A stretch of DNA of 64,000 nucleotides, taken from contig NZ_CP094929.1 of assembly GCF_022869165.1 (NCBI RefSeq), positions 2,294,001 to 2,358,000 on the forward strand. The letters run 5' to 3'. The notes below the pieces were generated by a model. It did no database searches. It had not been told where the DNA came from and saw nothing but the letters and a program-made list of their open reading frames with translations. The position numbers and the translations under genes were made by a program. Positions 3,797-62,111 of this stretch are shown here, piece after piece (the stretch's first letter is position 1; the number at the start of each line of letters is the position of its first letter). This DNA is from Sphaerochaeta associata. GTDB lineage: Bacteria > Spirochaetota > Spirochaetia > Sphaerochaetales > Sphaerochaetaceae.

Positions 3797-4640
3797 GAGC
3801 AATAAAATCATCCCATACAAGCGCTTCAGCCCTTGCAGACGGATCAACATGGGAAGCGTCGAGCAACGACTCAACCCCGCCCTTGCCCACCATCGCCCCG
3901 ATTTTTCCTGAGAGCAGATTGTTCTTTACCGTCTTGCGTCGTTGGGCGAACAGCTCGCGGATGACCAGCAGGAAAGTCTTTCGAAGATGATCGGGCACCA
4001 GACTCTGTTCACGGAGGGTGAACAGGACCGTGCTGCTGGTCACCTTCGGGGGTGGATAGAAAGCCCCGCTGTTGATGCTGAAGGCCGGTTTCACCTCATA
4101 ATCCATTTGGGCGAGCATGGAGAAGGACGACCAATCCTTGGACTGTGGATGTGCACACAACCGATCCACCACCTCTTTTTGGAGGGTGAACACCATCACA
4201 GGCGGGCGGTAATCGCTTTCCAATACTTTTGCGATGACCACCGAGCCCACATTGTAGGGAAGGTTGCCGCAGAGCCGGTCGGGACTCCCCTCCTTGGCCA
4301 GCTGGGCGGGAAGCGTCTTGAGCGCGTCGCCGGCGATGAGGCGAAAGGTTGGTTCATCGGCAAATGCCTGCTCGCCGAGTATGCGGCAAAATCCATGATC
4401 GATCTCAAAAGCAGTAACATTCGCCCCTTGTTCAAGAAGCAGGCTGGTGATCGCTCCGATGCCCGGGCCTATCTCCCACACCGTTTGGGACTGCTGTACA
4501 TCCAGAAGGGCCACAATCTTCTCCCTCACCGAGCGGGAGATCAGGAAGTTCTGACCAAATTTCTTGGTCATCGACAGCTCCTCCTGCTTCAGCAGAGCAG
4601 TAATTGCAATCGGGGAGTCGTATGCGAATGTCCAGCTCAT
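3762..4640 (-). CDS. rsmA: 16S rRNA dimethyladenosine transferase
   Basis: Dimethylates two adjacent adenosines in the 3' hairpin of 16S rRNA using SAM; also called KsgA. The 292-residue product has the SAM-binding motif EIGPGIG at about residues 56-62, an acidic residue closing the next strand (FEIDHGF) and the target-base motif NLPY at about 126-129, followed by a helical C-terminal domain. The start MSWTFAYD is chosen for its AAGGAG site. Its ATG would overlap a TGA in one reading frame of the upstream comEC-like gene, so the two may be translationally coupled. Confidence 0.95.
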   Translation of the reverse strand: MSWTFAYDSPIAITALLKQEELSMTKKFGQNFLISRSVREKIVALLDVQQSQTVWEIGPGIGAITSLLLEQGANVTAFEIDHGFCRILGEQAFADEPTFRLIAGDALKTLPAQLAKEGSPDRLCGNLPYNVGSVVIAKVLESDYRPPVMVFTLQKEVVDRLCAHPQSKDWSSFSMLAQMDYEVKPAFSINSGAFYPPPKVTSSTVLFTLREQSLVPDHLRKTFLLVIRELFAQRRKTVKNNLLSGKIGAMVGKGGVESLLDASHVDPSARAEALVWDDFIALSESLSSCQAR

Positions 4641-5979
4641 AGTGTGATCTCCTTCGTCTTTGTACAGCCATCGTAGCATAGCCAATAGAGACAAGACAGG
4701 TCAACAACACCGATATGTACACCGTATATCCTTTGGGTCCCACTTGAAAAGCATACCCTTGGTTCTTGGCGAGAATGGTGTATAGGATGGTTTGAACCCA
4801 ATAGAGGCCGATGCTGAAAAAGGAACCGAAAACCAGGCTTAAAAAACTGAAAGCCATGGCTATGTGTATCAAAGGAGTCAGCACCGGGGAGAAGAGCAGA
4901 CCACTGAGGTTGCAGGTGCCCTCTAGCAGCAGGGAGACCGGAGCCGTACCCGCTACAATCACAGCAGTATTCTGCAGGATGAAGGCAGGAAGCATCGAAC
5001 AGAGCAACAGCATTGCGTAGGCGGCCCAGCTGTACAGGCAGGCTTGGCTGGAAAGCGAATACGGAAAGAACAGCAGCTGAAGCAGAAAGGTCATCTGAAA
5101 GGCGAAGCTTCGTGAGACGGGCAGGAGTGAACAGAGGTGCATGCCCAGAGCCCTGACCAAGGACGGCTTGGGTCCGACAAGCAGAACATAGAGAATGGAG
5201 GGAACGGAGCCAAGCCACCTCCCCCATATGCGCCCAAGCAGATGAGAACAGAGTCTTATGCTGAGAGAAAGAAAGAAGTGCAGGTGCATGCCCGATAATG
5301 CCAAGAGATGAGCGCATCCGCATGCAAGGCTCAGATCCTTGAGGGGGAAACCCGAGCTCCCTGTCTGACCGAGCAGGAGCATTGCAGCGAGACTACGGGT
5401 TGTCTCATCTGCAATGACTTGCTGCAGTCTGAGTTGCAGCACCCTAAGGCAGTTCAGGCGCAAGCGTGCAAGCAAAGGAAGGTGAAGCACCTGCACGGTG
5501 TCTGCAAGAAACAAGCCGGACTGTTCGTCCAGGCGACCTACAAGGAGCAAGGTGGTGGCAGAGGCCATCACCTCGTCCACTTCGATCAAGGCCGTTACTG
5601 TTCCTTTGCATGTTGTACGATACCCGTCCTTTGATCGGCAGGCGGTGAGGGCAATACGCGCAAGCTGTTTGCTTGAACGGGTCAAAAGAGAGTCTTCCAC
5701 CAACCTTCCTTCTATCTGCATGATGTGCTGGAAGGGCATTCCATAGCTTGCCTGGTTGACTCCCGACGCCCAACCCAGTAGAGCATACAAACAGAAAAGC
5801 CAGGCGGCGAGTAAAGCCAGGCTCCACCTTGCATGCCTGCTACGCTGCATGAGTACAAGAGTCACCGAGCCACCCAGGATGCCTGCAAGCAGTGGGTAGG
5901 CAAGAAGAATCGGGGCAAAACTTGCCATATAGAGGCCAATGGTACAGAACAGCAAAAGTACGGCATGAAAGGCTTGCAT
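4432..5979 (-). CDS. ComEC/Rec2-like membrane protein, no nuclease domain
   Basis: The 515-residue frame has the competence domain of ComEC, the inner-membrane channel for DNA uptake, with the hallmark CGCAHLLALSGMHLHF at about residues 225-240 and several further membrane helices. The C-terminal metallo-beta-lactamase domain of full ComEC is absent. After the last membrane helix (about residue 445) the frame runs about 70 codons into rsmA in another frame, giving a low-complexity tail. A shift to the neighbouring frame would end in TGA overlapping the rsmA ATG. So either this is a long overlap or a frameshift has removed the proper end. Confidence 0.7.
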   Translation of the reverse strand: MQAFHAVLLLFCTIGLYMASFAPILLAYPLLAGILGGSVTLVLMQRSRHARWSLALLAAWLFCLYALLGWASGVNQASYGMPFQHIMQIEGRLVEDSLLTRSSKQLARIALTACRSKDGYRTTCKGTVTALIEVDEVMASATTLLLVGRLDEQSGLFLADTVQVLHLPLLARLRLNCLRVLQLRLQQVIADETTRSLAAMLLLGQTGSSGFPLKDLSLACGCAHLLALSGMHLHFFLSLSIRLCSHLLGRIWGRWLGSVPSILYVLLVGPKPSLVRALGMHLCSLLPVSRSFAFQMTFLLQLLFFPYSLSSQACLYSWAAYAMLLLCSMLPAFILQNTAVIVAGTAPVSLLLEGTCNLSGLLFSPVLTPLIHIAMAFSFLSLVFGSFFSIGLYWVQTILYTILAKNQGYAFQVGPKGYTVYISVLLTCLVSIGYATMAVQRRRRSHYELDIRIRLPDCNYCSAEAGGAVDDQEIWSELPDLPLGEGEDCGPSGCTAVPNGVGDRPGHRSDHQPAS

Positions 5980-5998
5980 GCCTGTACAGGCCGGTTAC

Positions 5999-6703
5999 TT
6001 ACCCGGTTGCTTCATCCAAGGCGACCAGCAGGGAGAGCAAAGGCAGATCGATTCGTTTTTGCATATGCTGGTGATACAGTCTAGCAGCAAGACGGCTGTC
6101 CGCCCTCTTCTGCTTTCTCAAGCGTACGAGAGTATGAGCTGTCTGCAACAAGGCCTTGTCACTCATGCGCACTTGCAGAAACAACAATGCGGCTATGTCG
6201 GAAAGTTCATCAAGTGTTCCTTCGAACACGAAGGGAAGCGGACTCTCTTCCGAGACCAAGCACAGCGAGTTGCACAGCGCCAAGGCGTCCACTTTGGAAG
6301 CTTCATCAAGATATTCTTCCAAGACAAAGAGTTGCTGTTCGATAACTTCCTTCCGTTCGGATGCACGGACCTTCAACTCATAGCGTCTGCGCTGGGCCAC
6401 CGAGGATCGAGTGTCGCGCTTTGCCAGGGCACTCCAGCCCAACAAGGTCAGGCCAACGCTGATGGCTATCTCATCGATGAGAGGCAGTGGATCGCGAATG
6501 GCAAGAGAGAGTACAAAATAAGAAGCGGTGAATATGAGGGCGCAGATGAGAAGACGAGGCACATACTGCTTATTCTGGATCCAGCGATCGACACAGAAGT
6601 CAATCGCCGAATACAGGGCGTACGTCGCCTCATCCTTCTGAGACTTTGTCAACATTCCGCTGCTTTTCAGCACCACCTCCTCATCTTCCTTCCAATCATC
6701 CAT
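5999..6703 (-). CDS. Hypothetical membrane protein
   Basis: About 234 residues from the ATG at MDDWKEDEE. A TTG 25 codons earlier, overlapping the end of the phosphohexomutase gene, is the alternative start. Two hydrophobic helices (around YVPRLLICALIFTASYFVL and the segment after it) are followed by a charged, helical, mostly cytoplasmic domain. I do not recognise the family. It sits between the phosphohexomutase and comEC-like genes on the same strand with short gaps, so it is probably cotranscribed with them. Confidence 0.6.
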   Translation of the reverse strand: MDDWKEDEEVVLKSSGMLTKSQKDEATYALYSAIDFCVDRWIQNKQYVPRLLICALIFTASYFVLSLAIRDPLPLIDEIAISVGLTLLGWSALAKRDTRSSVAQRRRYELKVRASERKEVIEQQLFVLEEYLDEASKVDALALCNSLCLVSEESPLPFVFEGTLDELSDIAALLFLQVRMSDKALLQTAHTLVRLRKQKRADSRLAARLYHQHMQKRIDLPLLSLLVALDEATG

Positions 6704-6774
6704 CCGATCAACATCCAGATACGGAGAGAGACAAAGACTGTTCTTCTGATGCCGGGAAAGTACATAACAGGTAA

Positions 6775-8487
6775 TCAACTGAGGGCCGCCTTATAGGTTT
6801 GGATGCGCGAGGCGAGCTTGCGCTCATTGGCCTCACACTTCCCCCCTTCCATCGTGAAAAAGAGGTAGTATTTAATTTTGGGCTCCGTCCCGCTGGGGCG
6901 GACGACCAATTTGTCACCGCAAGAGAACCGGATTATCAGGACATCCGAAGGCGGGAAGGCCGTTTGCTTCCCATCAAGTAAATCCTGGATGCCCTCGATG
7001 GTGGAACCGGCAAGCTCATCACCGGGAGAAAGCTTGCGAAGATTGGCCATGATGGCTGCCATTTTTTCCTTTCCGCTGGCGCCTTCATAGTCCTTGGAGA
7101 AAACAGCTTCGGTGCTATAGCCCCACTTTGCATAAATCTGAGTGAGGCGCTGCTCCAACGTCAAACCTTGTGTGGCCCAATAGCACATCAATTCAACACT
7201 GGCAAGGGCGCTGCTTACAGCATCCTTGTCCCTGACTTGGGGAAGTGTCAGAAAGCCATAACTCTCTTCGCAACCGAAGAGAAAATACTCAGCTTCTCCT
7301 TTCGGTCCTTCCAAATCGGCGATCTGCTCGGCAATGTACTTGAATCCGGTAAGTACATCCTTGCATCGTCCGCCTTGACTCTCCACAATACGGGCTACCA
7401 GATCGGTGGTGACCAGGCTCTTGACCACCAAGGGTTTCTTGGTCAAGTGCTTATGACTGTCAGCCTCGACCAGATAGTCGACCAGCAGGGTTGCGATTTG
7501 GTTGCCGGTCAACAGTTGGTACTCCGTCTTCTTTGCGTCAAGTGGTATGGCGATGCCCAGTCGATCCGCGTCTGGATCGGTACCCAACACGATATCAGCC
7601 TTCTCTTTTTTTGCGAGTGCAATCGCCATCTCCATCGCTTTTGGGTGCTCCGGGTTGGGAAGCGGTACCGTGGGGAAATTCCCATCCGGTTCCTGTTGCT
7701 CGGGAACTACAATGCAGTGGATCCCCACCTTCTTCAGCAAGTGCTGGACCGGCACGTTGCCGGAACCGTGCAACGGGGTGTAGACCACTCTTACCGGGCT
7801 GTCCTGTACCAAGGAAGGTCGTCTCAGGCTCAACAGCGCTGTGTGGTAGTAGGCTTCATCAACTTTCTCGGGAACAGGGACCAAAAGACCCTTCGAACGG
7901 GCGACCTGTTCGCTCACTTCCTTGATGTCCTCGGCCTTGACGGCATTCGCCCTCTCGGCAATGCTGTAATCGTGTGGAGGCGTGACCTGCCCCCCATCGC
8001 GCCAATAGACCTTGTAACCGTTGTATTGGGAGGGATTGTGACTGGCAGTGATGACAATGCCGGCAGTCGTCTGCAGGTATCGCACCGCAAAACTGAGCAT
8101 CGGAACCGGGTGCAGATCGGGATAGAGATAGACGGAAATCCCGTTGGCGGCGAGTACCAAGGCCGCCTCATTGGCAAAAAGATCGCTGTAGCGGCGGCTG
8201 TCATAGGCGATGACCACCGAAGGGTTCTTGGAGGCGTGGTTCAAATAGTCGCTCAAACCTTGGGTGACCTTGCGGACCATGAAGCTGTTCATCCGATTGG
8301 TTCCACCGCCGATGATGCCACGCATACCAGCTGTGCCGAAAGCGAGACTGGTATAGAAGCGATCATAGAGGGACTCCCATTTTCCTTGGGACAGTTCAGC
8401 CTCGACTTCGCTGGAGAACGCCTGCTGCCGTTCAGCTTTCAGATATGCCTCAGCTTTGTTTCTCAGATCCTTCTCGTTGTATGCCAT
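6775..8487 (-). CDS. Phosphoglucomutase/phosphomannomutase
   Basis: Interconverts hexose 1- and 6-phosphates through a phosphoserine enzyme. The 570-residue product has the order expected for this family: N-terminal GTAGMRG, the phosphoserine loop TASHNPSQYNGYK, a metal-binding GTDPDADRLG, a sugar-specificity loop with GCEESYGF, and the phosphate-binding RPSGTEPKIK near the end. The start MAYNEKDL has GGAGG upstream and lies inside the end of the upstream HAD gene, a 38-nt overlap suggesting one operon. GCEESYG fits a glucomutase better than a mannomutase. Confidence 0.93.
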   Translation of the reverse strand: MAYNEKDLRNKAEAYLKAERQQAFSSEVEAELSQGKWESLYDRFYTSLAFGTAGMRGIIGGGTNRMNSFMVRKVTQGLSDYLNHASKNPSVVIAYDSRRYSDLFANEAALVLAANGISVYLYPDLHPVPMLSFAVRYLQTTAGIVITASHNPSQYNGYKVYWRDGGQVTPPHDYSIAERANAVKAEDIKEVSEQVARSKGLLVPVPEKVDEAYYHTALLSLRRPSLVQDSPVRVVYTPLHGSGNVPVQHLLKKVGIHCIVVPEQQEPDGNFPTVPLPNPEHPKAMEMAIALAKKEKADIVLGTDPDADRLGIAIPLDAKKTEYQLLTGNQIATLLVDYLVEADSHKHLTKKPLVVKSLVTTDLVARIVESQGGRCKDVLTGFKYIAEQIADLEGPKGEAEYFLFGCEESYGFLTLPQVRDKDAVSSALASVELMCYWATQGLTLEQRLTQIYAKWGYSTEAVFSKDYEGASGKEKMAAIMANLRKLSPGDELAGSTIEGIQDLLDGKQTAFPPSDVLIIRFSCGDKLVVRPSGTEPKIKYYLFFTMEGGKCEANERKLASRIQTYKAALS

Positions 8488-9151
8488 AGATTGCATCCTC
8501 CAATTCGTGTATCGTATCGACAACCACAGCGTCTTGTAGAGCCAGCAGTTCTTCCTTGGGCCGAAACCCCCACGAAACAAGCACATGAGGACAGTCGGCA
8601 TTGCGGGCAGTCTGCCAATCAACTTCACTGTCTCCGACATACAGCACCTCATGGGGGTGAAGACCAACTTTCCTGCAAAAGTAATCTATTCCCGAGCGAT
8701 CGGGTTTCCTGGGAAATCCATCCTGCATTCCCCGCACCCACGAAAACGGGAAATCGGGAAACAAGGTGGATACTATGCGTTTGGTAAGCCCGTCTTCCTT
8801 ATTGGAAAAAATGCCGATGAGAAAGCCCTGCCTATGCAAGTGCCCGAGCAACTCGACAACACCCTCATAGGGATGACTATACACTGCAAAGTGCTCTCGA
8901 TAATAGTGAAGCATATCTTGATACAGCTGGTCGAACCGCTGCTCATCCACCCGGTGATCGTACCAAGCCAGGACTCCCTTCAATGCATTGGAAAGCCCCC
9001 TGCCCACCACGTGTTGGGTAAGGGTGGCTGAAGGAGGACTGAGATCTTCACCAGCTAGGGCATGAGCCAGCGAGCGGCGAATGTCCTCAATGGTATCGAC
9101 CAGCGTCCCGTCCAAATCGAAGAGAATAGCCTTGACAACCGGTTCCTGCAT
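8450..9151 (-). CDS. HAD family phosphatase
   Basis: A 233-residue haloacid dehalogenase superfamily hydrolase resembling phosphoglycolate phosphatase. The catalytic motif I, LFDLDGTLVDT, starts at about residue 10. Motif II is GIFSNKE and motif IV is VGDSEVDWQTA. The start MQEPVVK lies 6 nt after a -10 hexamer and has no ribosome site, so the message is predicted to be leaderless. The substrate is unknown; coupling to a phosphohexomutase suggests a sugar phosphate or phosphoglycolate. Confidence 0.88.
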   Translation of the reverse strand: MQEPVVKAILFDLDGTLVDTIEDIRRSLAHALAGEDLSPPSATLTQHVVGRGLSNALKGVLAWYDHRVDEQRFDQLYQDMLHYYREHFAVYSHPYEGVVELLGHLHRQGFLIGIFSNKEDGLTKRIVSTLFPDFPFSWVRGMQDGFPRKPDRSGIDYFCRKVGLHPHEVLYVGDSEVDWQTARNADCPHVLVSWGFRPKEELLALQDAVVVDTIHELEDAIYGIQREGSEKQS

Positions 9152-54202: not shown

Positions 54203-55213
54203 TTAGTTTTGGGGTTCAGGGGTTTTCTTTGCCCTGGCCACAACCTTCTTGGAGCTGTAATGGGTGCTCTTTCGGACTTTGTTCCCGTGCTCATCGATCT
54301 CGATGTTGGAGCGCTTTGCCTTCAGTTTCTGTACGCGCTTGAACCGTCGCTCATGGATGATTGGGAGGTGATGGTTGCGTGACCGATGGACCTCGAAGGG
54401 GTCACGAACGGTTCTCTTGGTTGAAGGAAAATCTGCCGACTCGGTTTCTCCATAGACTGAGGTCCCGGTATATTTCTCATTGGTGAGGATGTTCTCGATC
54501 GTCTTTACCGGCCATTTCTTCTTTCCGGTGGGAGTAGGAACTTTAAGAGTTTCCAGTTCCTTCTTGATCCTCACGATACTCCAGCCTTGCTCGTACCAAT
54601 CAAAGATCTTCAGGACTATTCTGGCTTCAGCAATGTTGAGGATGAGGCCTTCCTCCTCATTACGATCATAACCATAGCACCTTCGTGAGAATGCAGGAGA
54701 ATCAGGATCCATGGTACTTCTTCGAAGACCCCACTTGATGTTCTCACTCTTGTTCTCACTCTCAGCCTGGGCTATGCCCGCATGGAGTGTGAGCAGCAAC
54801 TCCCCTGCCTGGCTGAGGAGGTGGATCTGCTCATTGTAGAAAAAGACATCAACCTTCAGTTCCTTGAGACGTCTGAGAGTTACCAGGAAATCCACACAGT
54901 TGCGTCCGAACCGGCTGATGGACTTGGTGTAGATCATGTCGATCTTGCCCGCCTCACAGTCGGCCAGCAGGCTCTGGAAGCCCGGTCTGGAGCTTATGGT
55001 CCGTCCCGACTTGATATCGGTATAGGTACCGACATATTCCCAAGCGGGATTCTCCAGGATGTCCTCCTTCTCGAAGTCCATCTGGGCTGAAAGGCTGTGC
55101 AGCTGTCGCTCCATTTGTGTGCTCACACGACAGTACAGGGCGACACGGAGACGCTTGAAATGCCGCCTGGCTGGTATGACATGTATGATGGGCTTTCTCT
55201 TCTCGTCGGGCAT
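54203..55213 (-). CDS. Serine recombinase, cassette A
   Basis: A 336-residue site-specific recombinase. The resolvase-type catalytic domain comes first: VALYCRVSTQ with the nucleophilic serine near residue 31, then IYTKSISRFGRN with the catalytic arginines. The recombinase domain follows (RRCYGYDRNEEEGLILN, then ILTNEKYTGTSVYG near residue 268). It is much shorter than large phage integrases and lacks their zinc ribbon and coiled coil. The start MPDEKRKP is 9 nt after an extended -10 (TGTTATACA). It ends about 90 bp from the 97-bp repeat that it probably recombines. Confidence 0.88.
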   Translation of the reverse strand: MPDEKRKPIIHVIPARRHFKRLRVALYCRVSTQMERQLHSLSAQMDFEKEDILENPAWEYVGTYTDIKSGRTISSRPGFQSLLADCEAGKIDMIYTKSISRFGRNCVDFLVTLRRLKELKVDVFFYNEQIHLLSQAGELLLTLHAGIAQAESENKSENIKWGLRRSTMDPDSPAFSRRCYGYDRNEEEGLILNIAEARIVLKIFDWYEQGWSIVRIKKELETLKVPTPTGKKKWPVKTIENILTNEKYTGTSVYGETESADFPSTKRTVRDPFEVHRSRNHHLPIIHERRFKRVQKLKAKRSNIEIDEHGNKVRKSTHYSSKKVVARAKKTPEPQN

Positions 55214-55480
55214 AACCTGTTCTGTATAACACGGATTGAGGGATATGGATAGATTTGAGAAAACAATCTTGAGAGGACCTCGAATTGATACTTTTATTGC
55301 CCAAACATTTACAGCTGGGATTTCTTGGCTTATAGTTATTCTGATCATAATGGCCAAATCCACTGCACACCTTAGCACCTTCTAGATATTGATTCGGACA
55401 TAAAATCTTCAATCACCCGTTCTACTGACTTGCTGATCATCGAGTTGAGTAGCTGCTATATAATTGGAGGGCAAAAAGAA

Positions 55481-55963
55481 GTGGATAAAAATCAGAAGAA
55501 ACTAATCATCCTTCAAGGTAATTCAGGAGTCGGTAAAACCACTACACTGCAAAATGCGATTCGTGAACTTGTGTTCAATCACGATTTTATGATTACCGAA
55601 GAGGAAGCTGGAAGAAAAGATCGAAGAGTGGTACTAAAGCACAAAACAGACCTCCTGGTTTCAATTTGTACTAGTGGAGATACTCTTGAGATTATCGAGG
55701 GAAATTACCGATTCTTCATTTCCCACTGTTGTGATGTCATGATATCTGCTTGTAGGATTAACACCGAAACTCACCTCAACAATTCTAGAACCAACTTGAT
55801 GAAGACTGCATTAATCAGCTTTGCTTCCGGATATTGGGAATCGGATGAAGTTCATTTCAATGCAGATAGTGCTAATGTCAAACAACTCACACTTCTCTCA
55901 CACGAGGAAGAAGACATTATGATGGGTAAAATCATTCAAGAAATATCCATTATCAAGAATTAA
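55481..55963 (+). CDS. Small P-loop NTPase, cassette A
   Basis: A 160-residue protein with Walker A LQGNSGVGKTTTLQNAI at about residues 10-26. No clear Walker B or switch motifs follow; the rest is alternating strands and helices. The start GTG (VDKNQKK) is chosen for GGAGG 10 nt upstream; a TTG 17 codons earlier is the alternative. It is first in the cargo operon, 24 nt before the Ntn-hydrolase-like gene, so the two may work together. Not a AAA unfoldase by size. Confidence 0.6.
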   Translation: MDKNQKKLIILQGNSGVGKTTTLQNAIRELVFNHDFMITEEEAGRKDRRVVLKHKTDLLVSICTSGDTLEIIEGNYRFFISHCCDVMISACRINTETHLNNSRTNLMKTALISFASGYWESDEVHFNADSANVKQLTLLSHEEEDIMMGKIIQEISIIKN

Positions 55964-55987
55964 ATTTAATTTCACGGAGATGAAGAT

Positions 55988-56653
55988 ATGTCAGCATTAG
56001 TTTATATTCTACAAGAAACCCAAGTTGTATTAGCGATGGACACCTTGAGTTCGAAATACACAGAAGCTGGACTAAAACCGTTTAAATTTTTATCGAAGAT
56101 TTTCCCTCTCATGCATATGAATTCTATACTATGCGGAACTGGAAACTTCCAACCCATACTCAAGTGGTTTGAATACATTGAATCAAGCATTGTTGCATAC
56201 GGAATTGTTCAACTAAACCGGCTTACCGAGTTGTCAATAAAAGCCTTTATGGAAATTGAGAATGCAACCGATGAGCCTACTACACTTTATCAATTTGGGT
56301 TAAGCGAGATTGATGGCAAATTCTATGGATATGCCTATAGGTCTACCAACAATTTCGCTAGTGAAGAGCTGCAATATTCCATTGGGGTAAAACCTCAAGA
56401 CGCTTTTAATTCGATTAAGGAACTTTCCAAATTTATTGAAGGAAATATTGATCAGGACGTCCTTGCTTCTCTCCTGTTAAAGCTAAAAGAGTATGATGAC
56501 AATCTTGGCGATATGCATCCGGATAAAGTTGGCATTGGAGGACAAATGGAAATCTGCATTTTGCAAAAAAATTCATTACAAATCGTGAGGCAAGATATTT
56601 TCCCCGATTGTGAATCTGTCTATCAGGAAATTCTCGCTGGTTGTTCTTCTTGA
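55988..56653 (+). CDS. Proteasome-beta-like Ntn hydrolase, cassette A
   Basis: A 221-residue protein. After removal of Met1 it begins SALVYILQETQVVLAMD, which lines up with HslV and proteasome beta starts: nucleophile (here Ser) at position 1 and Asp at position 17. A lysine follows in LSKIFPL, near the position of catalytic Lys33, and LCGTGNFQPILKWFEYIES matches the strand and first helix after the glycine loop. So it looks like an N-terminal-nucleophile hydrolase with serine as nucleophile. Autoprocessing and protease activity are not shown. The ribosome site is GGAGATGAAGAT. Confidence 0.65.
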   Translation: MSALVYILQETQVVLAMDTLSSKYTEAGLKPFKFLSKIFPLMHMNSILCGTGNFQPILKWFEYIESSIVAYGIVQLNRLTELSIKAFMEIENATDEPTTLYQFGLSEIDGKFYGYAYRSTNNFASEELQYSIGVKPQDAFNSIKELSKFIEGNIDQDVLASLLLKLKEYDDNLGDMHPDKVGIGGQMEICILQKNSLQIVRQDIFPDCESVYQEILAGCSS

Positions 56654-56722
56654 CATGAGTAGGCTGTAAAATCAGGTGAATCGAATTTTCACGAGATGAT
56701 CCAAGATCAGAAGAGGATAAAA

Positions 56723-57355
56723 ATGCTTTCAAACTTTCCAAAATCAAATATTTCAATAACCAATAGAGACGGTGAAGTACTGTACCAAAATATTAAGGCT
56801 GTTTTTGCTGACAATATGTTCTTGATTGAGGACATAAAACTGATTTTTGAGGAAGGGGATATCATCGAGAAAATGCTTCCTAATGGCAGATCTGAGCGAT
56901 ACGAGATTCTTAAAACTGGATTTACTGAAGGCTTGAGCACAATCCCCGCCCACTTCCAAACCAAAGTCAGGAAAATCATCAAACACAAGGCTGAAAATAT
57001 TCAAGGCTACACTCCGAGCATCATCAACAACACTTATTCTGGGGTTGCAAATTTACAGGTTCAACAAAACACTCATAATTCATCACAAGTTATGAACATC
57101 AAGAACGGCTTGGACTATGAGCAGATTGAACTTATCCTCGAACTTCTTAAGTGCGATAAGTTAAAAAATGAGATTCCAGCTGAACGATTGAGCGAGTTTG
57201 AAAAGGCCAAGGATGACCTTGAATCTGCTATACAAAGAAAAGATCCTAAAGAAAAAATCAAACCTGTCCTTTCCTTCATTAAAAATCTTATTTTTACATG
57301 CGGAACTTCTGCATTGTCTGCAATGGTAGTAGATCAGATTTCAAAGATAATTTAG
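56723..57355 (+). CDS. Unknown protein with QQN motif, partner of AbiTii
   Basis: About 210 residues. The start ATG (MLSNFPKS) has AGAGGA 5 nt upstream; an ATG nine codons earlier is possible. An N-terminal beta-rich part (SNISITNRDGEVLYQN...) is followed by NLQVQQNTHNSSQVM at about residues 113-127 and a helical part ending in a hydrophobic segment (LIFTCGTSALSAMVV). The AbiTii gene product 9 nt downstream ends in NFQIQQNSTEAKQVL, so both share one motif. I do not recognise the family. Confidence 0.6.
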   Translation: MLSNFPKSNISITNRDGEVLYQNIKAVFADNMFLIEDIKLIFEEGDIIEKMLPNGRSERYEILKTGFTEGLSTIPAHFQTKVRKIIKHKAENIQGYTPSIINNTYSGVANLQVQQNTHNSSQVMNIKNGLDYEQIELILELLKCDKLKNEIPAERLSEFEKAKDDLESAIQRKDPKEKIKPVLSFIKNLIFTCGTSALSAMVVDQISKII

Positions 57356-57364
57356 GAGAAACAA

Positions 57365-58057
57365 ATGGATAACAAAGGAATAGTGCTGGAGCTTCAGAGG
57401 GAAGCATTGGACAATTCCTCTGACATCGTAGGCCTATTGAGAAAGGCAAAAATTATTGCTTATAAATTAGGCCTTGAAGATCTCACTGAATGGGCGACAA
57501 AGGAGGTAGGAGGATACACTTCAACTGACCTAGCAGAAACCATTCCGAGATATCGACACATATCTGGTGGAACTATCGAGTTTTTTAATCCATATCGTGG
57601 TTATTGTCCGACATATATAGATGATGCAGAACTATTAAAAAGACTTGATAGTTGTATCATCTATTTAGGAATTCCCAAGATAACCTCCTATCTTAAAACT
57701 GAGAAATCCAGCATATTCCGCTACACATTTACGCCAGATGCACAGAAGATACTTAACAGTATTAGCACCACTCCATGTGATTTTAGCTATTCAGTCAAAT
57801 ATCCGGTGAATTGTCTATTTCAGATTCTCGAAGACGCCCGGAACGTAATCATCGATTGGACATTGTTGCTGGAATCTAACGGGATTCTCGGTATCGACTT
57901 TTCATTTTCGGATAAGGAAATTGGAATTGCAGCATCTAAAAAGAGTATTGTAAACTATTACACGACTAACGTTTTCCTCAATTCTTCAAATTTTCAAATC
58001 CAACAGAATTCTACAGAAGCCAAACAAGTATTATCCATCTCGGATTTATCTAAATAG
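57365..58057 (+). CDS. AbiTii-domain protein
   Basis: A 230-residue protein. Its first 190 residues fit the AbiTii domain of lactococcal abortive infection and related defence genes: LELQREALDNSSDIVGLLRKAKIIAYKLGLEDLTEWATKEVGGY is the typical helical opening (residues 8-51). The C-terminus carries the QQN motif shared with the upstream protein. The role in phage defence is inferred from the domain and context. The ribosome site is AGGAGAAACAA. Confidence 0.72.
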   Translation: MDNKGIVLELQREALDNSSDIVGLLRKAKIIAYKLGLEDLTEWATKEVGGYTSTDLAETIPRYRHISGGTIEFFNPYRGYCPTYIDDAELLKRLDSCIIYLGIPKITSYLKTEKSSIFRYTFTPDAQKILNSISTTPCDFSYSVKYPVNCLFQILEDARNVIIDWTLLLESNGILGIDFSFSDKEIGIAASKKSIVNYYTTNVFLNSSNFQIQQNSTEAKQVLSISDLSK

Positions 58058-58164
58058 ACTATTACATTCTAATAGATAGTTTAAATTAGATTATTCATCA
58101 CTAAAATAAATTAGCAAAAACACACATGATATCATCTTATAGATCTCATAATCAAAAACATCTC

Positions 58165-58230
58165 ATTTGAAATATTAGATAAAGTTTATTTGAAATTTTC
58201 AAAATTAAATGTTATTCATAAAATTTGAAT
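58165..58230. promoter_or_regulatory. ATTTGAA(A)T triplet upstream of the XRE gene
   Basis: ATTTGAAAT at 58165 and 58188 and ATTTGAAT at 58223; the middle copy is part of a TTTGAAA..TTTCAAA palindrome. Possible autoregulatory operators of the XRE protein. Confidence 0.4.
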
Positions 58231-58258
58231 TGAAACTTACTACAAGTATAAATATTCT
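58230..58258 (+). promoter_or_regulatory. Promoter of the XRE gene
   Basis: TTGAAA, a 17-nt spacer and TATTCT, followed by a leader with AAGGAG before the ATG at 58277. Confidence 0.55.
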
Positions 58259-58276
58259 TCAAATAAGGAGTTTGAG

Positions 58277-59191
58277 ATGGATATCAAGGATTTCAAGAAA
58301 AGAATTTCAAGCAATATTAGAATTTTAACTAAATGGTATGACTATAAGATTGGTGCTCTGGAAAATGATGCAGGAGTCTCTCCTGGATATGTTTCTCGCC
58401 TGTCCAAAGAAGATTCTTTATCCTCCATGCCATTAATTGACTTGCTCGTCGAGACTTCAACAAAGTTCAAAGTATCTATTGATTCATTAATCTATTCGGA
58501 TTTTACCAAGTTCGCTAATGAAGATAAGAAGAGACTGTATTTATTTAGTGAAACACTATTGTATTTAACCGATACTAGCCAACTTTTATGGAAGAGGAAT
58601 GATGAGAAGCTGGTCTCGGAAGATGAGGTCGTTGGCAGCTACCTTGTTCAGTATAACAACGAAATTTCCTTCTATATTTTTGAATTGGAGTCAGTTAATG
58701 AGGAATGTCCTGGTTATTCATTATGGGTGGAAAACAGAGAGAAGAAAACAAATGTTGTTATAGTCAATTCCCCTGGTCCTGCGCTCTACGAAATCCTTGC
58801 CAGACTATATGAATCCGCCGGAGCAAGTGCAGATACAGTCTTTATTGATGAATCCGCAGACAGTGCAATCAGGTGTTTTATGGCTGAAAATGGAAATGTA
58901 TTAAAGAATTCATCCGAACTTAAAAAGTACAAGCCTTTATTTGATAGATTGAACGGTAGAAAAGAAGAAGAGATAACATTAACCTTCTTTGATATTGAGC
59001 AATGCTTAGGGTTTTCTCTTCCTGCAAGTGCTTATAAATATACATCATTTTGGGCAAACAACACCAATGGACAACATCAGCATTGTAAATCTTGGCAGGA
59101 TGCTGGGTACAAAACAATAGATGTTCCGAAAAGCATTATCAATCAATACATTACATTCAAAAGTATTAAGGAGCCGAATCATGAGATTTAA
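58277..59191 (+). CDS. XRE regulator fused to a C-terminal DNA-related domain
   Basis: A 304-residue protein. Residues about 5-70 are a Cro/CI-type helix-turn-helix (ALENDAGVSPGYVSRLSK is the second and third helix). Residues about 240-285 have LTFFDIEQCLGFSLP then ASAYKYTSFWANNTNG and CKSWQDAGYKT. This LP-x-SA...W-x-N...W-x-x-AG pattern occurs as a small domain in restriction- and defence-linked proteins; I think it is the domain called DUF7662 but cannot check. The middle is unassigned. The last 11 nt overlap the next gene, so the two are coupled. Confidence 0.65.
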   Translation: MDIKDFKKRISSNIRILTKWYDYKIGALENDAGVSPGYVSRLSKEDSLSSMPLIDLLVETSTKFKVSIDSLIYSDFTKFANEDKKRLYLFSETLLYLTDTSQLLWKRNDEKLVSEDEVVGSYLVQYNNEISFYIFELESVNEECPGYSLWVENREKKTNVVIVNSPGPALYEILARLYESAGASADTVFIDESADSAIRCFMAENGNVLKNSSELKKYKPLFDRLNGRKEEEITLTFFDIEQCLGFSLPASAYKYTSFWANNTNGQHQHCKSWQDAGYKTIDVPKSIINQYITFKSIKEPNHEI

Positions 59192-59729
59192 GAAAGCGGT
59201 TACAGTCATTATTGCTCTCTTGTTGGCGAATTTTGTGTTTGCCCAGGAATATACTACCTATGCAGCCTCGTCAAATATCAATTCACAAGGATATAGAAAA
59301 ACAGACCCTGTTTGGATTTTGAGTAATGCGAATAACTTTCTATGGAATAGGATTGTTGAAGAATCCGTGAAGAATGAATTTGAGAAACGGAATATCAATG
59401 TATTTTTAACCACAGATCAATTCGATTTGGTTGATGCTGCAGAGAATGAGTATGAGGCCTTTTATAATGCCGTTTTACAGTCCCAAGCAACATTTATTCT
59501 AGAAATCGGTATAGAAAATTTTAACACATATGAATATGGTGGAGGAGTTGCTAAGTTCGATGCGGTTGGAAATTTGGTGCGACTTGATGCCAACATAACC
59601 ACATTGAAGATTGGACTCTCCACAGAGGCTGATAAGAATGACATGTTGTCGTTCAATGCCACTCGTAAACCAAGTATAGAAAGTATGGCAAAGGCATTGG
59701 TAGACGAATATATGCGTTATGCCAGATAA
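59181..59729 (+). CDS. Exported hypothetical protein, cassette A
   Basis: A 182-residue protein with a clear signal peptide (MRFKKAVTVIIALLLANFVFAQ). The mature part has mixed helices and strands and ends LVDEYMRYAR. No lipobox, no known motif. The start ATG is within the end of the XRE gene, after AAGGAGCCGAATC. An exported protein in a defence-type cargo operon is unexpected; it might act in the envelope or be a passenger. Confidence 0.65.
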   Translation: MRFKKAVTVIIALLLANFVFAQEYTTYAASSNINSQGYRKTDPVWILSNANNFLWNRIVEESVKNEFEKRNINVFLTTDQFDLVDAAENEYEAFYNAVLQSQATFILEIGIENFNTYEYGGGVAKFDAVGNLVRLDANITTLKIGLSTEADKNDMLSFNATRKPSIESMAKALVDEYMRYAR

Positions 59730-59781
59730 CTAAACAACGACATCACAGATAAAAAATTCCTAAACGATTGGAGGTAATTAA

Positions 59782-60726
59782 ATGATTACTGTGGATACCT
59801 ATGTCAACGAACGTGAATGTGAATTTAAAGGTGAGAAGTATATTGTCCGAGACAATGGCGCTGTTATGCGTCTTTCGAAGAAAAACTATCGGAAAAGAAA
59901 GTTAGACAATAAGTGGACATTTGGAGTTGGAGATAAAACAACTGGTTATCTCAAATTTAGCAGCATCCCAATTCATAGAATTATTGCTACTGCTTTTCTT
60001 GGAAGTCCCAAAGATAGTAATTACGTTGTGGATCACATCAATACAAATCGGCAAGATAATACTCCGGGAAATCTGCGATGGGTTACGAGATTTGAGAATG
60101 TCTTTCTAAACCCAATAACTTGTAGAAATCTGGAGATGCTAACAGGACTTACCATTGACGAGATAATTCAAAATCCCAAAATACTGGAAAACTATAAGGT
60201 GTCGAAAAATATAGCTTGGATGAGAAAGGTGAACTCTGAGGAAAGCCGGAACTGCTATCAAAATCTTATGAATTGGGCTTTGAATTCAAAGATTGGGCCT
60301 TCAAAAAAACGAGGCATAATTGGAGAATGGGTTTATCAAACAAGATATCTTCCTCCTAAAGAAGATACCATGGAACATAGAAAGGTGGATAAAGTCTATC
60401 CATGCTGTCCTTCCGACAACGAAGAGAGATCCTTGGAAAACTATCAAAAAAAGCTCCAGTACGGAACTGTCTTTTTAGAAACATCAATCACGAAGTATAT
60501 TACTGTTGAATCTACCATTTTTAATAGAAAACTTATTATTAGAACAAGAGATGTGAATGATCAGGCTCTTAAACCGTGGTTTGTGTCCTGTGTGACTCTA
60601 GAAAATGGCAGATTTCAACATGAGTTGGTTAAATCTTGCTTTGTAGAAGAAGGGTCAAAGGAGTTCTTTGACATCATGCAAGATAAACCCTGGGAGTCTA
60701 ATCACTCTTTTGACTATATGTGCTGA
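59782..60726 (+). CDS. HNH endonuclease domain protein
   Basis: A 314-residue protein. The N-terminal 120 residues match homing-type HNH nucleases: IVRDNGAVMRLSKKNYRKRK as the opening strand, IHRIIATAFLGSP, and VVDHINTNRQDNTPGNLRWV with the paired His-Asn of the active site (about residues 78-97). The C-terminal 200 residues are unrecognised and may be DNA-binding or substrate-recognition. It could be a defence effector or a selfish nuclease. The ribosome site is GGAGG. Confidence 0.8.
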   Translation: MITVDTYVNERECEFKGEKYIVRDNGAVMRLSKKNYRKRKLDNKWTFGVGDKTTGYLKFSSIPIHRIIATAFLGSPKDSNYVVDHINTNRQDNTPGNLRWVTRFENVFLNPITCRNLEMLTGLTIDEIIQNPKILENYKVSKNIAWMRKVNSEESRNCYQNLMNWALNSKIGPSKKRGIIGEWVYQTRYLPPKEDTMEHRKVDKVYPCCPSDNEERSLENYQKKLQYGTVFLETSITKYITVESTIFNRKLIIRTRDVNDQALKPWFVSCVTLENGRFQHELVKSCFVEEGSKEFFDIMQDKPWESNHSFDYMC

Positions 60727-60915
60727 GTCAAATGAACACACGGTCTTAACATTGAAAACTATGGCATTCCCATGAACTGTTAGGTTGTCTTCTATGCCCT
60801 GTTTATGGTATTAAACTGGTTTATAATAAACACTACAATAGCACAGCCAATCCTCTATAAAACATATAACGGAATATTTCATTGCATTGGATAAAGATAT
60901 TTAACCTATAAATCA
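60727..60915. other. Right end of cassette A, non-coding
   Basis: About 190 bp of AT-rich DNA with no gene, up to the second direct repeat. Confidence 0.5.
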
Positions 60916-61012
60916 TCAATGACAACTTGCCCATGATACAAGATTACCCTATGCAAGTATTTGTTTTGTAAACACTTATTTTTTCGTTATTTTACCAGTT
61001 TTTCAGGATTTT
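60916..61012. repeat. 97-bp direct repeat, copy 2 (A/B junction)
   Basis: Identical to 54018-54114. The sequence to its left (cassette A right end) is unrelated to ssb, which places the left limit of the recombination site at about 60916. Confidence 0.9.
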
Positions 61013-61100
61013 TTATTAATTTAGACTACTCAATTTCGTCAATTTTTACCAAAGATACGTACACTCGTATTTTCAACAATACCGTTGATTAATATGCCAT

Positions 61101-62111
61101 TTAGTTTTGGGGTTCAGGGGTTTTGTTTGCTTTTTTCACAGCTTTCTTCGAGCTGTAATGGGTGCTCTTTCTGACCTTGTTCCCGTGCTCATCAACCTCG
61201 ATGTTGGAGCGCTTTGCCTTCAGTTTCTGCACGCGTTTGAACTGTCGTTCATGGATGATGGGGATGTGATGGTTGCGTGACCGATGGACCTCGAAGGGGT
61301 CACGAACGCTTCTCTTGGTTGAAGGAAAATCAGCGGACTCGGTTTCCCCGTAGACTGAGGTACCGGTATATTTCTCATTGGTGAGGATATTCTCGATTGT
61401 CTTCACCGGCCATTTCTTCTTGCCCGTTGGTGTAGGAACCTTCAAGGATTCCAGTTCCTTCTTGATCCTCACGATACTCCAGCCTTGCTCGTACCAGTCA
61501 AAGATCTTCAGGACTATTCTGGCTTCAGCAATGTTGAGGATGAGTCCTTCCTCCTCATTACGATCATACCCATAACACCTGCGGGAGAATGCCGGGGAGT
61601 CAGGATCCATGGTACTTCTTCGAAGCCCCCATTTGATGTTCTCGCTCTTGTTCTCACTCTCGGCCTGGGCTATGCCTGCATGGAGTGTGAGCAGCAACTC
61701 CCCTGCCTGGCTGAGGAGGTGGATCTGCTCATTGTAGAAAAAGACATCCACCTTCAGTTCCTTGAGCCTCCGAAGCGTCACCAGAAAATCCACACAGTTG
61801 CGTCCGAACCGGCTGATGGACTTGGTGTAGATCATATCAATCTTCCCCGCCTCACAGTCGGCCAGCAGGCTCTGGAAGCCAGGACGCGTGCTGATGGTCC
61901 TACCAGACTTGATATCGATATAGGTACCGACATATTCCCAAGCGGGATTATCCAGGATGTCCTCCTTCTCGAAGTCCATCTGGGCTGAAAGACTATGAAG
62001 CTGTCGCTCCTTCTGCGTGCTAACACGACAGTACAAGGCAACCCGGAGACGCTTGAAATGTCGCTTGGCTGGTATGACATGTATGATGGGTTTTCTTTTC
62101 TCGTCGGGCAT
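61101..62111 (-). CDS. Serine recombinase, cassette B
   Basis: A 336-residue serine recombinase of the same length as the cassette A enzyme and differing at about 14 positions, several of them in the last 15 residues (AVKKANK in place of VVARAKK). Catalytic residues and the recombinase domain are intact. The start MPDEKRKP lies 9-10 nt after an extended -10 (TGATATACA). Having two active-looking copies may allow independent excision of the cassettes. Confidence 0.88.
   Translation of the reverse strand: MPDEKRKPIIHVIPAKRHFKRLRVALYCRVSTQKERQLHSLSAQMDFEKEDILDNPAWEYVGTYIDIKSGRTISTRPGFQSLLADCEAGKIDMIYTKSISRFGRNCVDFLVTLRRLKELKVDVFFYNEQIHLLSQAGELLLTLHAGIAQAESENKSENIKWGLRRSTMDPDSPAFSRRCYGYDRNEEEGLILNIAEARIVLKIFDWYEQGWSIVRIKKELESLKVPTPTGKKKWPVKTIENILTNEKYTGTSVYGETESADFPSTKRSVRDPFEVHRSRNHHIPIIHERQFKRVQKLKAKRSNIEVDEHGNKVRKSTHYSSKKAVKKANKTPEPQN

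Follow-up and report, generated by a model that had tools for sequence, protein, structure and literature searches.

A proteasome-beta-like Ntn hydrolase by predicted fold, carried by mobile elements beside variable defence-type genes

Within a 64,000-nucleotide stretch of the Sphaerochaeta associata genome (contig NZ_CP094929.1, positions 2,294,001 to 2,358,000; hereafter the window), one gene of a small mobile island encodes a protein whose predicted fold gives good support for a genuine proteasome-beta-like Ntn hydrolase. Its active-site residues are conserved, its family is mobile, and no constant partner gene accompanies it. With moderate confidence, we regard the protein as an Ntn peptidase or amidase of the proteasome-beta fold that stands alone and needs no ATP, is borne by mobile elements and is most likely accessory in conflict among phage, plasmid and host, with an activity and a target that we infer. 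Here, the family was identified, its label as a terminase was corrected, its proposed pairing with a P-loop protein was refuted, and its variable defence-type neighbors were listed.

The island (window 54203-62111) is bounded by large serine recombinase genes of the CcrB/XisF type, the left and right copies of which are 96% identical. Its genes follow the order P-loop, Ntn, AbiTi, AbiTii, HTH-DUF7662, a small secreted-type protein, and an HNH endonuclease (Table 1). The original prediction had placed a Walker A protein 24 nt ahead of the Ntn gene, and both open reading frames (ORFs), on the same strand, as well as the 24-nt gap between the stop of the first and the start of the second, were confirmed; the P-loop ORF has an alternative, longer TTG start at 55430. 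The same island was also seen in one congener (locus L028). As a separate observation, the N-terminal domain of the AbiTi protein (window 56696-57000) is widespread and, on many enterobacterial plasmids, matches part of proteins annotated as TIR-domain or nucleotide-binding.

Table 1. Features of the island and of the Ntn protein in the window, and genes upstream of Ntn homologues at other loci
Feature	Position	Strand	Remarks
Serine recombinase, left copy	54203..55378	-	ORF extent; part aligned to the right copy, 54206-55213
Small P-loop protein, 160 aa	55481..55963	+	GTG start; Walker A GNSGVGKT; local neighbor rather than conserved partner
Proteasome-beta-like Ntn hydrolase, 221 aa	55988..56653	+	ATG start; central gene
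Predicted nucleophile Ser2 (residue 1 once Met is removed)	codon 55991..55993	+	Ser/Thr in 27/27 homologues
Asp18 (mature Asp17)	codon 56039..56041	+	Invariant, 27/27
Lys37 (proteasome Lys33 equivalent; mature 36)	codon 56096..56098	+	Invariant, 27/27
GTG, residues 50-52	codons 56135..56143	+	Strand end before helix 54-67; position of oxyanion glycine Gly47; 27/27
AbiTi-type protein	56696..57355	+	PADLOC AbiTi, E 4e-16; 42 nt downstream of the Ntn gene
AbiTii protein	57365..58057	+	PF18864, E 3e-28; makes the AbiT pair complete
Serine recombinase, right copy	61101..62111	-	Closes the island on the right
SIR2/ThsA-like gene, L056		same as Ntn	Directly upstream of Ntn; 22-nt gap
HEPN-like gene (motif reading), L029		same as Ntn	Upstream of Ntn; 20-nt gap
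AbiTi-like gene, L011		same as Ntn	Upstream of Ntn; 25-nt gap
DUF4145/PD-T7-4 gene, L036		same as Ntn	Upstream of Ntn; 42-nt gap
HEPN/Csx1-like gene, L010		same as Ntn	Upstream of Ntn; 77-nt gap
DzbB gene, L033		same as Ntn	Upstream of Ntn; 122-nt gap

The fold was predicted with AlphaFold2 from 19 sequences, at a pLDDT of 89.3 and a pTM of 0.86. When the model was compared with the PDB by Foldseek (E 1.5e-9), 458 matches were obtained at E <= 1e-3, and all 50 matches listed were proteasome chains. In VIA-align, the best match was a proteasome beta subunit (Z 18.2, 2.7 A over 177 residues), Anbu reached Z 17.5, and residue 2 of the model paired with mature residue 1 in many rows. Thus, structure prediction and fold comparison returned the proteasome-beta Ntn fold. 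The original prediction had aligned the protein with HslV and the proteasome beta subunit, and this likeness held for the predicted fold and the active-site pattern but not in sequence comparison. The protein had no Pfam match, no NCBIfam match above cut-off, and no PADLOC family; a PDB sequence search gave zero solved-structure matches; PF00227 matched none of the 19 family members at E <= 10; and hhalign of the family against HslV was non-significant. Since these sequence methods were negative, the link to HslV and the proteasome depends on predicted structure and the active-site pattern.

That pattern was followed through 27 homologues, all distinct and intact, with a median pairwise identity of 34% and a minimum of 22%. 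The hallmarks of the proteasome-like family are a Thr1/Ser1, Asp17, and Lys33 triad and a Gly47 oxyanion hole (PMC8665760). The spacing of Ser1 and Asp17 after Met removal, noticed originally in the window protein alone, recurred throughout the set, with Ser (18) or Thr (9) as the residue after the start residue. The aligned Lys fell at mature positions 32 to 37 and at exactly 33 in 20 of the 27. The helix that had been guessed was found in the model after the GTG strand end. Further invariant positions, in mature numbers, were Arg117, Phe122, Pro135, and IGG182-184. In the alignment, the equivalents of proteasome Asp166/Ser169 look to have been replaced, a point against the enzyme reading. 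For these assignments, a possible extra upstream start should be borne in mind in six homologues (L004, L011, L031, L035, L038, and L058), and TTG was taken as the start at the conserved place in L011. As judged from sequence, the S1/D17/K33-type active site is complete, with Met removal predicted. Apart from proteasome beta and HslV, the published homologues lack propeptides (PMC8665760), and the present family likewise has none.

We infer the catalysis, substrate, oligomeric state, and conflict role of the protein along the following lines. Methionine aminopeptidase would remove Met1 and leave Ser1 with a free amine, which, together with Lys33 (Lys36 here) and Asp17, would turn the Ser1 hydroxyl into a nucleophile, while the GTG loop would supply the oxyanion hole. 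The enzyme could then cut or transfer a peptide or amide bond in one particular target protein, with no AAA+ unfoldase dedicated to it. Because no unfoldase is encoded with it, the enzyme probably works by itself or together with house chaperones. The published proteasome-homologue groups likewise have no co-occurring AAA+ partner (PMC8665760). A role in conflict might take the form of defense, superinfection exclusion, or a protease switch.

Several known enzymes resemble the protein in part. Like the 20S proteasome beta subunit (PF00227), it has the predicted fold (Z about 18) and the N-terminal Ser/Thr, Asp17, Lys33, and Gly47-region pattern; unlike it, the family has no detectable sequence similarity to that subunit, no alpha subunit, no AAA+ partner, and no propeptide, and its nucleophile is more often Ser than Thr. 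HslV (ClpQ) is also a compact bacterial Ntn subunit, with a gapless 17-residue start ending in Asp17, but no HslU was found among the immediate Ntn neighbors in the loci read, and the profile comparison was non-significant. The host has a separate HslV elsewhere (G000:C1:1536253-1536774). Anbu shares the predicted fold, is bacterial, and lacks a dedicated unfoldase, whereas the present family is a mobile accessory gene for which no sequence similarity to Anbu was found.

As reported previously, 22 groups of proteasome homologues, including FC1-FC5, GPH, DAH, PPH, and AAH, were described by Fuchs, Alva and Lupas in 2021 (PMC8665760). The present family resembles those groups as uncharacterized prokaryotic or phage proteasome-like proteins with an intact active site and no AAA+ partner, some of them phage-transmitted, and may itself belong to one of the 22. 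It differs from FC1 or GPH, compared by their Table 1 description, in spanning Bacillota, Pseudomonadota, Cyanobacteria, Chloroflexi, and phages. The proteasome-like superfamily and phage-borne members of it are thus already known, and no name for this family was found in the libraries searched. What is added is a widely transferred, partner-free proteasome homologue in a wider family of which hardly any bacterial function is known.

By tblastn, a homologue was found in 140 plasmid records, mostly from Enterobacter, and in five Lactobacillus phage records. The plasmids opened were conjugative plasmids of the IncHI2 and IncX7 types and one Paenibacillus plasmid. With profile scans, another 13 loci were gained from IMG/VR and 11 from genomes of Bacillota, Pseudomonadota, Cyanobacteria, and Chloroflexi, followed by a few more. 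In the window's own phylum, 1 of 296 genomes carried the gene, as did 2 of 40 close relatives; in groups centered on other matches, the counts were 4/345, 7/392, 1/344, and 1/292, where every center genome is itself a match. The family is therefore rare: among the genomes of the groups searched, about 0.3-2% carry it. Its homologues are scattered over the four phyla named above, conjugative plasmids, temperate phages or prophages, and defense islands. Since it is present on plasmids, prophages, and defense islands of distant bacteria, the family is real, though uncharacterized. The IncHI2 and IncX7 homologues make its function testable in E. coli K-12.

Judged from context, a defense role of the gene is plausible. 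A role in conflict, taken by itself and drawn from mobility and neighbors, remains tentative, with a chance somewhat below even. If a role in phage defense proved true, it would place a proteasome-type enzyme in bacterial immunity; no published example, and no HslV-like or Ntn-like defense system, was found in the literature searched. At other loci, the Ntn gene was often the last in a same-strand run opened by a defense-type gene (Table 1). At L029, DUF2971 precedes the HEPN-like gene, and the Ntn gene has type I restriction genes downstream of it. DUF4145/PD-T7-4 was also found among the neighbors at L018. At L035, the gene stands beside a DRT UG36 and AbiTi-like layout, although the upstream protein resembles AbiTi in layout with non-significant similarity. 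When PADLOC was run on upstream, downstream, and distal genes to gauge defense enrichment, defense matches were also found among the distal genes, and its output counts families, not genes. Downstream of the SIR2-Ntn pair at L056, two ORFs (4587-5651) were seen to resemble a broken caspase-like (C14) peptidase, a match that Pfam did not return.

Such neighborhoods would also be expected if the Ntn protein were a common control subunit by which the adjacent defense effector (SIR2, HEPN/DUF4145, AbiTi-like, DzbB, or DRT) is activated, matured, or degraded. In CBASS and retrons, a core is held in common and effectors are swapped. The presence, in several unrelated loci, of a defense-type gene immediately ahead of Ntn, on the same strand and a short distance away, is consistent with this arrangement. 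So are the recurrence of AbiTi beside Ntn in both the window and contig L011 (28% identity) and, in Lj928 and KC5a, which are related Lactobacillus phages, the SieB and DUF4145 genes upstream of an almost identical Ntn gene. However, many homologues have no such neighbor (IncHI2, IncX7, L031, L034, L037, and L054), and clustering of defense genes occurs anyway. In addition, AbiTi and AbiTii are intact in the congener G298 despite a broken Ntn gene, and AbiTi-domain proteins are common on plasmids, where the two loci opened had no Ntn beside them. On balance, a shared control subunit is unlikely. The stronger form of this idea, though attractive, is a novel type of mobile conflict system in which a constant proteasome-like Ser/Thr hydrolase would switch interchangeable effectors (SIR2, HEPN/DUF4145, AbiTi-type, DzbB, or DRT) on or off by cutting them, and it appears more doubtful still.

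The AbiT system of Lactococcus (AbiTi plus AbiTii) resembles the window in that both Abi genes follow Ntn there, but the Ntn gene is no component of AbiT, and most Ntn homologues are found without it. An obligate Ntn-AbiT pairing was considered and rejected on the intact AbiT of G298 and the plasmid AbiTi domains that lack Ntn.

Stand-alone copies of the gene were found on IncHI2 plasmids and at L031, L034, and L037, and the surroundings at L031 and L037 were ordinary-looking chromosomal ones. Some Ntn hydrolases are metabolic amidases. A stand-alone gene in ordinary-looking surroundings, as at these three loci, would suit a housekeeping-type amidase or peptidase that has no part in conflict and is passively spread by mobile elements, but the sporadic occurrence at the frequency given above and the strong link to mobile elements make this decidedly improbable. 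At L054, a lone Ntn ORF lies between near-identical repeats of about 300 bp that resemble integron-cassette units. Single-gene units between such repeats extend over 4015-8795 of that locus, and some of their left edges read like GCCCCTTATGCGGGCGTTAG, resembling attC junctions.

The preferred reading of a stand-alone enzyme departs from the original prediction of a nucleotide-controlled pair, in which the P-loop protein would gate or feed the hydrolase as a small, two-gene protease like HslU-HslV. The two genes are indeed adjacent on one strand at the spacing given above, and their order is kept in one congener. Nevertheless, searches of 72,556 plasmid records and 50,697 phage records and the IMG/VR scan turned up no homologue of the P-loop protein, and none adjoined any Ntn homologue found outside the genus. 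Among the 39 relatives searched, only G298 had the gene, within the same island between serine recombinase genes. There, an ISL3-type transposase gene splits P-loop from Ntn, which has lost its start codon and has a broken frame, while the P-loop gene is intact, as are the Abi genes. The neighbor search thus recovered the pair once, separated and with one member a pseudogene. The 160-aa P-loop protein had no AAA+ family match above the curated cut-off, and its model, folded alone, was unusable (pLDDT 33). Given the absence from these searches and the split and broken state in G298, the two genes do not make up a conserved system. As a two-gene system it was rejected since the genes do not co-occur in independent loci, and the P-loop protein is simply a local neighbor of the Ntn gene. 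Nucleotide control through this neighbor found no support, the pair being absent outside the genus; the idea is largely refuted, and a miniature HslU-HslV appears very unlikely.

The phage copies have carried a different label. In PHROGs, the family appears as phrog_13702 under the name terminase large subunit (window protein, E 1e-30; L007 5001-5657), and in Lactobacillus phages, including Lj928 and KC5a, the protein is mostly annotated as terminase. The Ntn protein has no Walker A, its model is proteasome-like rather than of the terminase ATPase fold, and in Lj928 the small and large terminase genes lie after the Ntn gene. The terminase label is therefore wrong, because the terminase genes follow separately and the fold is not that of a terminase; its replacement turns a wrong label into a testable enzyme class. 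That the protein belongs to the phage virion or its assembly, as a terminase or tail factor, and has leaked into bacteria is scarcely credible. Beyond this annotation, such a reading draws on the phage contigs L065 (2579-6624) and L066 (2816-6624), where a tape-measure-like gene ends 2 nt before Ntn and tail-assembly-like genes follow it, but the majority of homologues are located in accessory islands and on plasmids, outside structural modules. The viral structure matches of the model include phage proteins labeled proteasome beta or HslV.
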